DNA of 64,000 nt from positions 248,001 to 312,000 of the forward strand of contig NZ_JAARML010000004.1 of the NCBI RefSeq assembly GCF_011759375.1, in the 5' to 3' direction. This document shows positions 3,142-17,338 of this stretch, one piece after another. Position numbers and translations under genes: made by a program. Numbering within the stretch: the first letter of the stretch is position 1; each line of letters opens with the position of its first letter. The stretch is from Paraflavitalea devenefica. GTDB lineage: Bacteria > Bacteroidota > Bacteroidia > Chitinophagales > Chitinophagaceae. Below the pieces are notes generated by a model. It worked only from the letters and a program-made list of their open reading frames with translations, had not been told where the DNA came from and did no database searches.

Positions 3142-3534
3142 TTATTGGCGTCGCACCGGTGAGCTGCTGCGCCTTTTTGCATACCAATAATCTATTCCCA
3201 GTACAACGATGAGTATGACCAGCCCAAAGAATTCACGGGTATCTTCAATCCAGGGCTTCTGGGCTTTCATGGTCTGCGCAATGTTTTCCGCCTGGTGTTC
3301 CCTGATCCAATCCAATACCCCATCATCGGTAAAGAACAGGAACACCGCATAGATACTGTAGACCAGGATGCCAATGATATAGGCCCGGGGATAGTAATTG
3401 CCCCGGAAGGCCATCCAGCATAATACGGCGCCATAGCCGTAAATAGGGATCCATACATAAGGATCGGGGTCATTGTATTGGAGGGCGGCGCTGAAGACAA
3501 ACAGTAAACAGAAAAGCAGGTTGAAGATTTTCAT
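3142..3534 (-). CDS. Small membrane protein, transmembrane 220 (TMEM220) family
   Basis: A 130-residue protein with about four hydrophobic segments. The N-terminal MKIFNLLFCLLFVFSAALQYNDPDP is typical of the TMEM220 family, whose members keep the QYNDPDP motif after the first helix. The start at 3534 is preferred over an in-frame one at 3561 because the MKIF start gives a clean first membrane helix. The biochemical role of the family is unknown. The gene ends 67 bases before the Crp/AraC regulator start on the same strand. Confidence 0.75.
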   Translation of the reverse strand: MKIFNLLFCLLFVFSAALQYNDPDPYVWIPIYGYGAVLCWMAFRGNYYPRAYIIGILVYSIYAVFLFFTDDGVLDWIREHQAENIAQTMKAQKPWIEDTREFFGLVILIVVLGIDYWYAKRRSSSPVRRQ

Positions 3535-3568
3535 GCTGTTAATATACAAATGAAGAAACAAAAATACT

Positions 3569-3598
3569 CCGCAGGGTCCCTTGCAGGAGACCCTGCGG
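3569..3598. repeat. Intergenic hairpin, family H1 copy A
   Basis: The 10-bp arms CCGCAGGGTC and GACCCTGCGG are perfectly complementary and enclose CCTTGCAGGA. The same hairpin with compensatory changes occurs at 34713-34742 and 41498-41527. It lies between divergent genes and has no T-run, so it is not a standard terminator. It looks like a REP-type element. Confidence 0.75.
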
Positions 3599-3712
3599 GG
3601 AAGGTTAGATTTTCATGCTGTAATATACAAAGCGGGTGGTAAATGGCGAAGGCCCTTTCCATAAACAATTTCCGGGAGAAAAACAACTACATGTAATACG
3701 ACTAAAAGGGGC

Positions 3713-13753: not shown

Positions 13754-14334
13754 CTCCATTACAATGGATTTGGGGCTTACGTGGCGGTTGACGCTTACAG
13801 TTTATCCTGAGGAAATTTTGAATCTGTTTTTGGATTCAGCGGCCTTTTTTGGTAAATTGTATGAACACTGATTTATCCGTTTATGATATGAGCAGGCGTA
13901 TTACTTTTAACATCCTCATTTCGATCAAACCCTTACCGGGACTGGGTTTGCCAATCCAAAACAATATAAACCCGCGTTCCGCCTGCATTTGACCCTTGTT
14001 GTGTTACTTCTCCTTTACTACTCCTTTACTACTGGCTTACTGCTGGTTTACTTTTCCTTTGCCTTTACCCGGAGATTGCTATCAGATTGCCCGGGGACTG
14101 CCATGGAACTACTATTAGGATAGCTATTAGGAGTAATCAGGTAAAGCGGGCCAGAGGCCCGGGAATAGGGCTGCGAGGCTGCAAGCCCTCGCAGAGCAGG
14201 TTACCTGGGCAGACAGGTCAAATAAGACATACTAAAACGGACATTTGTTTCACTTTCGTGCAAAAAGACCGTTTTGGAACATGGGTGATTTGGAAACCGT
14301 TATGAGCAGTTGTAAATTAGAGAAAAACACATGT
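13754..14334. other. 581-base intergenic region without a convincing gene
   Basis: No supported ORF or RNA was found. The region contains a short tandem tract around 14010-14050 (CCTTTACTACT repeated, then TTACTGC variants) and one hairpin at 14171-14194. A short ORF at 14087-14305 has no family features and is not called. Confidence 0.6.
14171..14194. repeat. Intergenic hairpin, family H2 (GCTGCAAGC core)
   Basis: CTGCGAG and CTCGCAG pair, with an inner GCT/AGC pair around GCA and one bulged C. The GCT-GCA-AGC centre also occurs in hairpins at 38826-38848 (other orientation) and 38900-38922. Confidence 0.55.
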
Positions 14335-15555
14335 ATGGCTAAAGTTATATCTCCTTTTAAGCTCAGCGGGTCACTCGGTGACCTTACCTATTTCGAGAAT
14401 GAGTATGGCCCCCAGGTGAAGGAAAAGGGCGGCCCTACGAAATGGCAGGTAAAAAACCTGGACAGTATGGCCAATACCCGCCACAATGCGGCCGAGTGGA
14501 AGCGGGCCACGGCGGCCTCCAAACTCACACGGCTGGCCCTGGGCAGCCTGCGGCATTCGGTGAAGAATATAAAGCTCAGCGGCCGCATGATTGGCCGGTT
14601 ACTGGCGGTCCTCAAGGCCGACCAGGTCCATGACCGGGGCGAGCGGGTGGTTGCCTCCGGCGACCTGTCGCTGTTAACCGGCTTTGAGTTCAACTATAAA
14701 CTGTCGCTGGACGACGCCCTGCCCTTGAATATAGCCAATTGCATGGCCGTTCAGCCAGGCAAGGTAGCGGTGAATATCCCGGCATTCCGGCTGCGTAAGA
14801 AAAAAAGCTTGCCGGTGGATGCCACGCATTACCGGCTGGTATCGTGTATACTGACGATCGATTTCGAAAAACGGACCTTCCGGCAAGACAAACAGGAAGG
14901 GGCACTACAAGCGATGGGCCGGCAGACTGGAGAAGGTTTTTGTATTGAGCAGGTGGTACAACCCGACAATGAACAAGGTTGCTTCTGGCTGATGGGGATC
15001 GAGTTTTATAAAATGGTGAATGAGCAACCAGTAGTAGTAAAAGGTGGCGCCTTGCGGGTGATGGAGTGGATTGGGCAGGCGTGTGAAGAAGAGCCTGTTA
15101 TGGTAGTTCAGGATGTTGCAGATGAGGTGGTATTGACTGAAGCGTATGCCGGGAAAGTAGAGCCTGTTGAGGCTGAGATGGAGGAGATTGGTGCAGCGTA
15201 CAAGGAAGCCATGGAGGAGGTTTTAGCTGCGTGCCTGGAGAGAACAGGATTTGCTGAAGCGGATGCTACTATTACAGCGGTTGAGCAGTCAGCCCTGTTT
15301 CCGGAAACGGATGTGGTGGAAGTTGAAGCTACAGCAGCAGCACCTGTTGAATTTATTGCAGACGAAGTGGATACGGTATTGATTAGTGATGATGTGGAAT
15401 TTGAGAAATCTTTGCGGGTGTTGTTGCCGGTAGAGGGTTATCAGCGGCGAAAAGCATCACGCAGTAGTTTGGCAGAGCCATTCTATGAACCCGTGTTGTG
15501 GACGGAAATGGAATATGCTCTTATTGCTGATATTATGGATGCTGCGGTGGACTAG
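14335..15555 (+). CDS. Lineage-specific Bacteroidota protein with basic N-domain and acidic C-terminal tail
   Basis: A 406-residue protein. The start at 14335 (MAKVISPFKL) is chosen because the characteristic segment SGSLGDLTYFENEYGPQVKEKGG begins right after it. I recognise this N-terminal pattern (short strand, G-x-x-G-D-L-T-F/Y, then a V-x-x-K-G-G turn and NTRxNAAEW) from uncharacterised proteins common in Chitinophagaceae. Residues ~245-380 are strongly acidic (many E, D, V, A) and read like a disordered tail with less GC than the N-terminal half. No signal peptide, no membrane helix. Function is unknown. It is followed by the AT-rich promoter of the XRE cassette. Confidence 0.7.
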   Translation: MAKVISPFKLSGSLGDLTYFENEYGPQVKEKGGPTKWQVKNLDSMANTRHNAAEWKRATAASKLTRLALGSLRHSVKNIKLSGRMIGRLLAVLKADQVHDRGERVVASGDLSLLTGFEFNYKLSLDDALPLNIANCMAVQPGKVAVNIPAFRLRKKKSLPVDATHYRLVSCILTIDFEKRTFRQDKQEGALQAMGRQTGEGFCIEQVVQPDNEQGCFWLMGIEFYKMVNEQPVVVKGGALRVMEWIGQACEEEPVMVVQDVADEVVLTEAYAGKVEPVEAEMEEIGAAYKEAMEEVLAACLERTGFAEADATITAVEQSALFPETDVVEVEATAAAPVEFIADEVDTVLISDDVEFEKSLRVLLPVEGYQRRKASRSSLAEPFYEPVLWTEMEYALIADIMDAAVD

Positions 15556-15666
15556 CCTATTGTAATAAATTGTTCTAAACTATCTTTTAAAAACAAACAC
15601 CCATTGTCTTATAAATTATTACAAATTGAATTTCAACTAGTTAATAATTTTAATAAATTTCTAACC

Positions 15667-15712
15667 TGTTACAATTTTTATAAATTAATAAAATTAATTT
15701 AATTTTGTAACA
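15667..15712. promoter_or_regulatory. Promoter with flanking inverted repeat (putative operator) for the XRE-ImmA-PIN cassette
   Basis: TGTTACAA (15667-15674) and TTGTAACA (15705-15712) are exact reverse complements 38 bases apart centre to centre. TAATTTTG (15700-15707), a full match to the Bacteroidota -7 element, overlaps the right arm; the left arm lies around the -33 position. The region 15560-15720 is nearly all A and T. A dimeric HTH protein bound at both arms would shut the promoter, so autoregulation by the XRE protein is inferred. Confidence 0.55.
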
Positions 15713-15743
15713 TCCTTTAAAAATCGCTAACCGCAAATTATCT

Positions 15744-16079
15744 ATGTCAAAAACTGGTTTAATAATGAAGTCCCTTAGGGAAAAGTTTGGGTATGTGCAG
15801 GAGAATGTAGCGGAGTTTCTGGGAGTTTCAAGAGAACTGGTAAGTATGTATGAAACTGAAGAAAGAGATGTACCAATTGAAGTCATCGAGAAACTAAGCA
15901 ACCTTTTCTGCGTCGACCCGGAAGCCTTTTTCGCTGAGACAGTGGAAGAAGCAGTAGCCCAGGTGGCTTTTGCCTTCCGAAAAGATGAAATTGACTCAAA
16001 AGATCTGGAAGAAATCGCCGCCTTTGGCAAGATTGTAAAGAACTATCTAAAGATTAAAAAATTAAATGGTCAGCTTTAA
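15744..16079 (+). CDS. XRE-family helix-turn-helix regulator
   Basis: A 111-residue DNA-binding protein. Residues ~5-60 form a Cro/C1-type HTH: SLREKFGYVQENVAEFLGVS, RELVSMYETEERDVP, then VIEKLSNLFCV. The C-terminal part (AFRKDEIDSKDLEEIAAFGKIVKNYLKI) is helical and probably mediates dimerisation or contact with the protease encoded next. It overlaps the ImmA/IrrE gene by 14 bases, showing translational coupling. It is the likely repressor of its own promoter through the inverted repeat at 15667-15712. Confidence 0.85.
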   Translation: MSKTGLIMKSLREKFGYVQENVAEFLGVSRELVSMYETEERDVPIEVIEKLSNLFCVDPEAFFAETVEEAVAQVAFAFRKDEIDSKDLEEIAAFGKIVKNYLKIKKLNGQL

Positions 16080-16815
16080 TGATAAGATACTGGAGGTAAG
16101 AGCCACTAAATTCAGGGACTCACTAGGAATCAGCAATGCTGACCCCATTGACCTATATAAAGTTCTGGCAGAGCTGAATGTAGTTACCAATTTTCGTCGC
16201 ATGGGACCAGAATTTTCCGGCATGGCGTTGAAGATAGGAAAGGATAGCAAGTTTATCCTGGTAAATAGTGAACAGGCCAGATCAAGGCAGCATTTCACCA
16301 TTGGCCATGAACTGTATCACTTGTTTGTACAACCTGACTTTAGCTTTATGTTGTGCAAAACAGGACGGTTTAACAAAAAAGACCGCGAAGAATACAATGC
16401 AGATGTTTTCAGTAGTTTCCTATTGATGCCAGAAGTTGGTGTGCTGAGTTGCATTCCCGAAGAGGAACTGGCAAGAGGAGGCCAGATTAGCCTGCCAACG
16501 ATAGTGAAGCTTGAACAGCATTTTGGAGTTTCCCGCCGCGCGCTACTGGTCAGGCTGGACAAGCTTGGTCTGATAGACTATGAAGGTTATAGCACTCAAT
16601 ACCTGACTGGAATAAAAAGAAGTGCCAACCAACTGGGTTATAGTACCAGATTATATGAAGCTGGTAGTGACTATAATATGATTGGTGACTATGGTATGGT
16701 TTGCAAAAAGCTCTTTGAAGAGGAAAAGATTTCAGAAAGTCACTACTTCAACCTGATGTTCGACATTGGAGTGAACATTGATCAAAAATTTGAGGAAAAT
16801 GACGACGAATGGTGA
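16066..16815 (+). CDS. ImmA/IrrE-family zinc metallopeptidase
   Basis: A 249-residue protein. Residues ~76-86 (HFTIGHELYHLF) carry the HExxH zinc motif. The third ligand is expected in the REEYNADVFSSFLLMP segment (residues 108-122), which is the hallmark of the ImmA/IrrE (COG2856) family. Such proteases cleave HTH repressors encoded nearby, as ImmA does for ImmR and IrrE for DdrO. The C-terminal ~80 residues may be a sensing or substrate domain. Start and stop overlap both neighbours (14 and 17 bases), so the three genes are one operon. The expected target is the XRE protein; this is inference. Confidence 0.9.
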   Translation: MVSFNDKILEVRATKFRDSLGISNADPIDLYKVLAELNVVTNFRRMGPEFSGMALKIGKDSKFILVNSEQARSRQHFTIGHELYHLFVQPDFSFMLCKTGRFNKKDREEYNADVFSSFLLMPEVGVLSCIPEEELARGGQISLPTIVKLEQHFGVSRRALLVRLDKLGLIDYEGYSTQYLTGIKRSANQLGYSTRLYEAGSDYNMIGDYGMVCKKLFEEEKISESHYFNLMFDIGVNIDQKFEENDDEW

Positions 16816-17338
16816 ACCCCAGATACTGCTCGATTGCGACGTTGTGATTCACTTCCTGAAAGGTGGCAAGATACTGGAATTACCAACCATCTTTCCCGGC
16901 CGTTTCGTTATGCTGGATAAAGTGCACAATGAGCTACTGAAACGTAACAGCAATGTACTAGCCATAGGGGTATTTCTGGCGGCTGGCAGCGTACCGGTGA
17001 TCGCCATGCCGACAGAACCTACAATCATAAAGGAATATTTGACGCTAAAAAAGTCGATGGGTGATGGAGAAGCTGCTTGTCTGGCTGTAGCAAGATTCAG
17101 AAAAGAATACGTGGCCAGCAGTAATATCAACGATATTGCTGCCTATTGCAAGACCAACAGGATAGTTTATTATACGACTATGGATCTTTTGCAAGAAGCA
17201 ACTGTCAAAAAGATTATGACTGATACAGAGTGCAATCTATTTATAGCCGAAGTAAGAAGTAAAGGCAGCCGTATGCCGTTTAATACTATCGTTGACTACC
17301 GGAAATCAAAAGGCATTGGAATCCATAAATATTCATGA
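16799..17338 (+). CDS. PIN-domain protein (putative ribonuclease) of the XRE-ImmA cassette
   Basis: A 179-residue protein starting at the ATG at 16799; an in-frame ATG at 16778 is also possible. The four acidic positions of a PIN nuclease are visible: D12/D14 (ILLDCDVVIHFL), E45 (KVHNELL), D89/E91 (SMGDGEAACLAVA) and D112 (SNINDIAAYC). PIN proteins are Mg-dependent RNases and are the toxins of VapBC-type systems. Here the usual small antitoxin is replaced by an XRE regulator and a metallopeptidase. The site looks intact, so the protein is likely active. The tail after residue ~150 (NTIVDYRKSKGIG) is an extension beyond the core fold. Confidence 0.8.
   Translation: MTTNGEPQILLDCDVVIHFLKGGKILELPTIFPGRFVMLDKVHNELLKRNSNVLAIGVFLAAGSVPVIAMPTEPTIIKEYLTLKKSMGDGEAACLAVARFRKEYVASSNINDIAAYCKTNRIVYYTTMDLLQEATVKKIMTDTECNLFIAEVRSKGSRMPFNTIVDYRKSKGIGIHKYS

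Follow-up and report, generated by a model that had tools for sequence, protein, structure and literature searches.

A mobile XRE-ImmA/IrrE-PIN cassette in Paraflavitalea devenefica: a probable autorepressed toxin operon with protease release

What is a PIN-fold protein doing at the end of an operon whose other products are a putative repressor and a metalloprotease? The question is raised by three overlapping + strand genes at 15744-17338 of the window, the 64,000-nucleotide stretch of Paraflavitalea devenefica DNA analyzed here, which specify an XRE protein, an ImmA/IrrE protease and the PIN-fold protein (Table 1). The overlaps given in a first-pass annotation, 14 nt for XRE/ImmA and 17 nt for ImmA/PIN, are borne out by the coordinates; its starting point, 15556, lies in the promoter region, where there is no gene. 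For the PIN gene the ATG at 16799 is preferred, the mechanical ORF beginning at a TTG at 16778. No small VapB antitoxin gene stands beside it: its same-strand neighbour is the protease gene, and the only small ORF in the operon is that for XRE. The cassette is a mobile operon; that it serves as a stress or phage-defence toxin operon, autorepressed and released when a damage-activated protease cuts the repressor, is the reading considered probable.

Table 1. Positions in the window of the genes, control elements and residues discussed
Feature	Position	Strand	Evidence
Operator box 1, TGTTACA	15667..15673	.	Pairs with box 2 in inverted orientation, the starts 39 bp apart; conserved in the upstream regions of relatives
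-7 promoter element, Bacteroidota type, TAATTTTG	15700..15707	+	Similarly placed in most relatives; box 2 overlaps it
Operator box 2, TGTAACA, overlapping the -7 element	15706..15712	.	Exact 46-bp operator once in genome
XRE repressor, CapH-like, probable antitoxin, 111 aa	15744..16079	+	Pfam HTH_3, PADLOC capH and PDB matches
F78-R79, 'FR' motif (AFAFR), predicted protease cleavage region of XRE	15975..15980	+	AF(R/K) conserved
ImmA/IrrE (M78) protease, CapP-like, 249 aa	16066..16815	+	Pfam, PADLOC capP, PDB CapP 7t5t
HELYH zinc-binding motif (H81, E82, H85; residues 81-85)	16306..16320	+	Columns invariant in 10 relatives
Cys97, candidate cysteine switch	16354..16356	+	Cys at second His +12
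Protease E109	16390-16392	+	Nearly invariant
PIN-domain protein, VapC-like fold, predicted ribonuclease toxin, 179 aa	16799..17338	+	AlphaFold model, fold searches, conserved family
PIN acidic residue D12	16832..16834	+	Invariant, 12/12 aligned relatives
PIN acidic residue E45	16931..16933	+	Invariant, 12/12 aligned relatives
PIN acidic residue E91 (GDGEA)	17069..17071	+	Invariant, 12/12 aligned relatives
S108-N109, replaced canonical fourth acidic position	17120..17125	+	SSN in split-gene clade

The first two products are readily recognized. Pfam places the XRE protein in HTH_3 (E=4.9e-9) and the protease in Peptidase_M78 (E=7e-12), both above cut-off and in agreement with the initial description of an XRE protein followed by a metallopeptidase with HELYH. 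Among PADLOC models XRE matches capH (2.7e-7, residues 3-97) and the protease capP (4.1e-23). The PDB matches of XRE are the ICEBs1 XRE-family regulator 7t8i (2.9e-10) and 7t5u (5.5e-4), and a search of the PDB with XRE and ImmA concatenated returned the ICEBs1 XRE-family regulator only. The solved protein nearest to the protease is CapP 7t5t (6e-6 by sequence and 1e-7 by fold), followed by IrrE/PprI; the protease profile also finds VapB52 (9vzy) as its fourth sequence match with an E of 0.0025. The last 70-80 residues of the protease have no sequence alignment to CapP, IrrE or VapB52.

Recognition of the third product depends on structure. The window PIN protein has zero matches in Pfam, NCBIfam, PADLOC, PHROGs and the sequences of the PDB, and a profile of its family likewise found no sequence match among PDB chains. 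Its AlphaFold model (mean pLDDT 87.6) has a PIN fold, with VapC toxins nearest (Foldseek E 2.5e-4, prob 1.0; VIA Z 12.3 over 119 residues at 3.0 A), and so the call of a PIN domain made from the bare sequence is upheld by VapC structures where the sequence libraries are silent. The 'intact acidic quartet' of that call has to be given up: only D12, E45 and E91 are invariant (n = 12), and the fourth position is Ser108-Asn109 across the whole split-gene clade, with ASDE or ATDD in the distant fused relatives L010 and L011. The Asp three residues past that position, D112, is Gln in one relative (L006), and D14 is an additional acid present clade-wide, which may make up for the lost fourth one. Since the fourth acidic residue is lost, catalysis is not assured; by analogy with its structural neighbours, the protein is nonetheless quite likely an RNase toxin.

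How is the operon controlled? Bacteroidota-type promoters have a -7 element with the consensus TAnnTTTG. Upstream of the operons are inverted TGTTACA/TGTAACA boxes, 39 or 40 bp apart, and in most loci the downstream box overlaps TAnnTTTG. In an unbiased spacing scan of 13 upstream regions, exact inverted 7-mer pairs occurred at a spacing of 39 in 4 loci and of 40 in 3, the maximum at any one spacing in 300 mononucleotide shuffles being 2 loci; once pairs with 1 mismatch are counted, 11 of the 13 regions have an inverted pair at 39-40 bp. The 46-bp operator with exact boxes and spacing has a single occurrence in the 8.7-Mb genome; even when the spacing is relaxed, the number expected in the window is 0.01. 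A second loose match in the genome (C5:38714) was set aside for its wrong spacing and GC-rich sequence. Among the matches listed, genomic sites elsewhere that depart from the operator by 1-2 mismatches were no commoner than in the control, and a wider regulon is not claimed.

The boxes change together with the recognition helix of the repressor. The helix RSAYSNYE of L009 goes with TGTGGCA/TGCCACG at unchanged spacing, and RGAYANYE of L042 with TGTTGCA/TGCAACA. For L045, which has a helix of the L009 type, GTGGCA boxes were forecast beforehand, and a perfect TGTGGCA/TGCCACA pair was found, 40 bp apart and on the -7 box TATATTTG. Upstream of the L047 XRE gene (3444-3643) no inverted pair at 38-41 bp was found; a -7 element is present there, and the helix differs (RSVLRKYE). 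Because the operator is conserved, unique and covaries with the recognition helix, there is good evidence that XRE binds it and represses its own operon, and autorepression via this predicted operator is very likely. A third TGTTACA box, possibly a further repressor site, lies 53-64 bp upstream of the operator pair in L002, L003 and L006 (at about -134, -141 and -147 from the ATG), and one with a single mismatch is found in L008 and L012.

The cassette has company, widely if thinly spread. About 15 relatives were found, mostly in Bacteroidota, on chromosomes, integrative elements, a plasmid and viral contigs. All keep the order XRE-ImmA-PIN, usually with overlaps, only ImmA-PIN being seen where a contig ends (L044 begins at a contig end, inside the gene set). 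In counts that each take in the window's own genome, the PIN protein was found in 5/296 genomes of the family, 5/395 of the phylum and 3/398 of the order, a patchy presence in about 1-2% of genomes. A single-sequence genome-contig scan (one relative), together with searches of plasmids and phages and a scan of viral contigs, gave further relatives: a MAG, a Hymenobacter plasmid that is mobilizable, a faecal 'phage' contig, and four IMG/VR contigs of which two are near-identical. A protease profile run against the 296 genomes revealed no close member lacking a PIN gene; it found only the window's own protease and two distant fusions. Those two, L010 and L011, have an XRE-ImmA fusion and then a PIN gene, the form described in PMC2701414.

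Signs of movement are present at several loci. Relatives lie beside integrases or ArdC and primase genes in L030, L032, L042 and L047; in L030 an integrase and ArdC are near the cassette, and in L042 and L047 integrases adjoin it. In the sister genome G086 the two genes that flank the cassette in the window are adjacent, with no cassette between them. The window cassette adjoins a 436-aa ORF at 14245-15555 that is without a Pfam or NCBIfam match; its homologue in G086, where there is no cassette, diverges after residue 397, and the cassette may therefore have arrived at the 3' end of this ORF.

As to whether such loci cluster in defence islands, a matter raised at the outset, six relatives are near known or candidate phage-defence genes. 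A scan of 18 genes around the window copy showed no evident defence system. Type I R-M genes are near the cassette in L029, L033 and L036, accompanied in L033 by a TIR protein and a helicase and in L036 (4823-6957, on a 9.7-kb contig) by an AbiLi/AbiLii pair, the pair and the R-M genes being directly upstream of the cassette. Septu is near the L006 cassette, DRT9 near that of L046 (plasmid), and the candidate PDC-M04 near that of L034. Enrichment near defence genes is an impression given by these raw counts. At the window copy, matches to mad3, AriA, GajA, ZorB and a phospholipase were rejected as a defence island, the genes appearing from their sequences to be housekeeping ABC-F ATPase, OmpA-type and patatin genes.

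In the protease, a Cys 12 residues past the second zinc His occurs in 15 of 16 records, the exception being a frameshifted plasmid copy (L046); the fused relatives read have no Cys at the switch position. Cys97 aligns with a CapP cysteine, and we infer that it acts as a cysteine switch; in CapP and VapB52 a cysteine blocks the zinc till ssDNA binds (PMC13273310). On the side of the predicted substrate, AF(R/K) is present in every readable XRE protein of the clade, and the proteins end with this motif plus a helix. VapB52 self-cleaves with ssDNA, F75-R76 being at the cleaved junction (PMC13273310), and by this analogy XRE is fairly probably cleaved near its FR motif. Repressor and protease are separate genes here, and cleavage would therefore be in trans.

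The scheme envisaged runs as follows. In quiet cells XRE would sit on the two inverted boxes, one of them on the -7 element, and hold its own operon (XRE, protease, PIN) low. XRE would probably also bind and blank the PIN protein, a part played towards VapC52 by the N-terminal domain of VapB52; when direct neutralization is assessed on that analogy as a claim of its own, the chances look even. On appearance of ssDNA, which related enzymes make slightly favoured as the trigger, the protease would be activated and would cut XRE near the FR motif, with loss of the C-terminal segment of the repressor. The operon would then be derepressed, and unguarded PIN protein would build up and cut RNA, so that growth stops or infection aborts. 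Of the protease-gated, repressed module that the first-pass annotation had put forward, the conserved unit stands and XRE is very likely self-repressing, with an operator on the -7 element and a covarying helix; release of that repression is something that the CapP-like protease could accomplish.

Might the three genes simply be an XRE-ImmA pair that has an unrelated PIN gene as a chance neighbour? The absence from the four same-genus genomes searched is in keeping with this, but the order is the same in different families of the phylum, on a plasmid and on viral contigs. Chance adjacency is excluded because all relatives keep XRE-ImmA-PIN, and can be given practically no weight; the search for homologous three-gene loci suggested earlier has thus refuted it. 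A catalytically dead PIN protein with a binding or regulatory role would account for Ser-Asn replacing the fourth acid in a whole clade. The constancy of D12, E45 and E91 through 12 divergent relatives speaks against it, as does D14, the perhaps compensating acid, and a dead enzyme is considered improbable. As for the protease, its signal might be other than ssDNA, with redox or zinc release acting via the cysteine, or a phage protein. Oxidation or zinc can in principle open a cysteine switch, and PMC7907104 reports zinc/redox signalling for Deinococcus IrrE; against this, ssDNA activation is reported for the nearest solved relatives CapP (PMC13373217), PprI (PMC10904395) and VapB52 (PMC13273310), and a different signal seems unlikely.

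A further question is whether XRE ever touches the PIN protein. Under purely transcriptional gating of the CapH-CapP type it would not: the operon would be silent until the repressor is cut, and the PIN protein would act conditionally as an effector and would not belong to an addiction pair. The resemblance of XRE and the protease to CapH and CapP does cover the core or the greater part of each protein, and the -7 element carries a strong operator for autorepression. However, in the fused VapB52 the N-terminal domain binds the PIN toxin directly (PMC13273310), and the genes for XRE, protease and PIN overlap and remain together in all relatives, as expected for a stoichiometric TA complex; gating without contact is accordingly thought rather unlikely. 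The most novel version of the protease-released toxin operon would make it a split VapBC52 acting in trans, in which a cysteine-switch protease cleaves a separate XRE that is both repressor and PIN antitoxin, the PIN site is rearranged (fourth acid lost, D14 gained), and the whole is a distinct Bacteroidota system for ssDNA-triggered abortive infection. This is put forward tentatively, as somewhat doubtful.

The idea has forebears. Makarova, Wolf and Koonin predicted Xre-COG2856-PIN as a 'three-component TAS' in 2009 (PMC2701414), with the same three domains in one operon, a patchy distribution, presence on plasmids and phages, and the same proposed logic of a protease cleaving an Xre antitoxin/repressor. 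Theirs were mostly Xre-COG2856 fusions, whereas here there are three separate genes with a defined operator, and a PIN subfamily outside Pfam and PADLOC models. VapBC52 of mycobacteria, characterized in 2026 in its fused form (PMC13273310; PDB 9vzy), shares the XRE domain, FR motif, IrrE peptidase with cysteine switch and PIN partner; VapB52, however, is one fused self-cleaving protein, in contrast to the two separate overlapping genes of the window clade. The CapH-CapP controllers of CBASS, Bub and other systems are separate HTH repressors with ssDNA-type metalloproteases having a Cys switch, and the window pair is homologous to them, with the zinc-site residues HELYH and E109, and C97, present; they control a neighbouring multi-gene immune operon, here replaced by one PIN gene in the same operon. 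VapKSC (PMC13373217, 2026) is also a three-gene anti-phage operon with a damage-sensing regulator pair and a VapC-like PIN effector, but a kinase and a STAS protein take the place of protease and XRE. Classical VapBC shares the PIN fold; it differs in having four conserved acids, not three, and a small VapB beside the PIN gene.

Among candidate systems, the uncharacterized PADLOC entries PDC-M69 (A/B/C) and PDC-S70 correspond partially to the cassette: XRE matches M69A (2.5e-4) and the protease M69B (3.7e-13), the L047 PIN protein matches M69C (1.3e-5), and PINs of relatives match PDC-S70 at between about 0.003 and 1e-10; the window PIN matches neither M69C nor PDC-S70. XRE and ImmA are homologous to RmrA, the ImmA-type antitoxin of RosmerTA (PMC10440598), but RmrA is usually a fusion and the toxin studied is a membrane depolariser; the PIN protein has no RmrT match. 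NetFlax linked ImmA and PIN in 2023 (PMC10440598). A PIN protein with XRE and protease partners, at first thought unusual, had thus been foreseen in 2009 (PMC2701414), met again by NetFlax (PMC10440598), partly covered by PDC-M69 and characterized in the fused VapBC52 (PMC13273310).

With the general idea already known from these four, and with VapKSC as its kinase analogue, what is new is the split Bacteroidota clade, an operator that covaries with the recognition helix, the placing in trans of the conserved cysteine and the FR motif, and an altered site in the PIN protein. The cassette joins three lines, the 2009 prediction of a protease-gated toxin, the CapHP damage switch and the fused VapBC52 pair, and since repressor, protease and toxin are separate genes, each step is testable separately. 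The 46-bp operator and the helix covariation make a ready reporter and a test set for binding specificity. Since the Pfam, NCBIfam and PADLOC models tried miss the PIN family, such operons will be labelled 'hypothetical' in many genomes.

On the Hymenobacter plasmid (L046 7205-7953; NZ_CP053906.1) the protease gene is apparently frameshifted and without the switch cysteine, and the XRE and PIN genes are open; the frameshift could be decay or a sequencing error, and the locus is probably a natural case of a toxin gene kept with its repressor and the protease absent. In L041 (913-2507) an XRE-ImmA fusion is followed directly by a DUF4411 protein, another swap of PIN-type partner.
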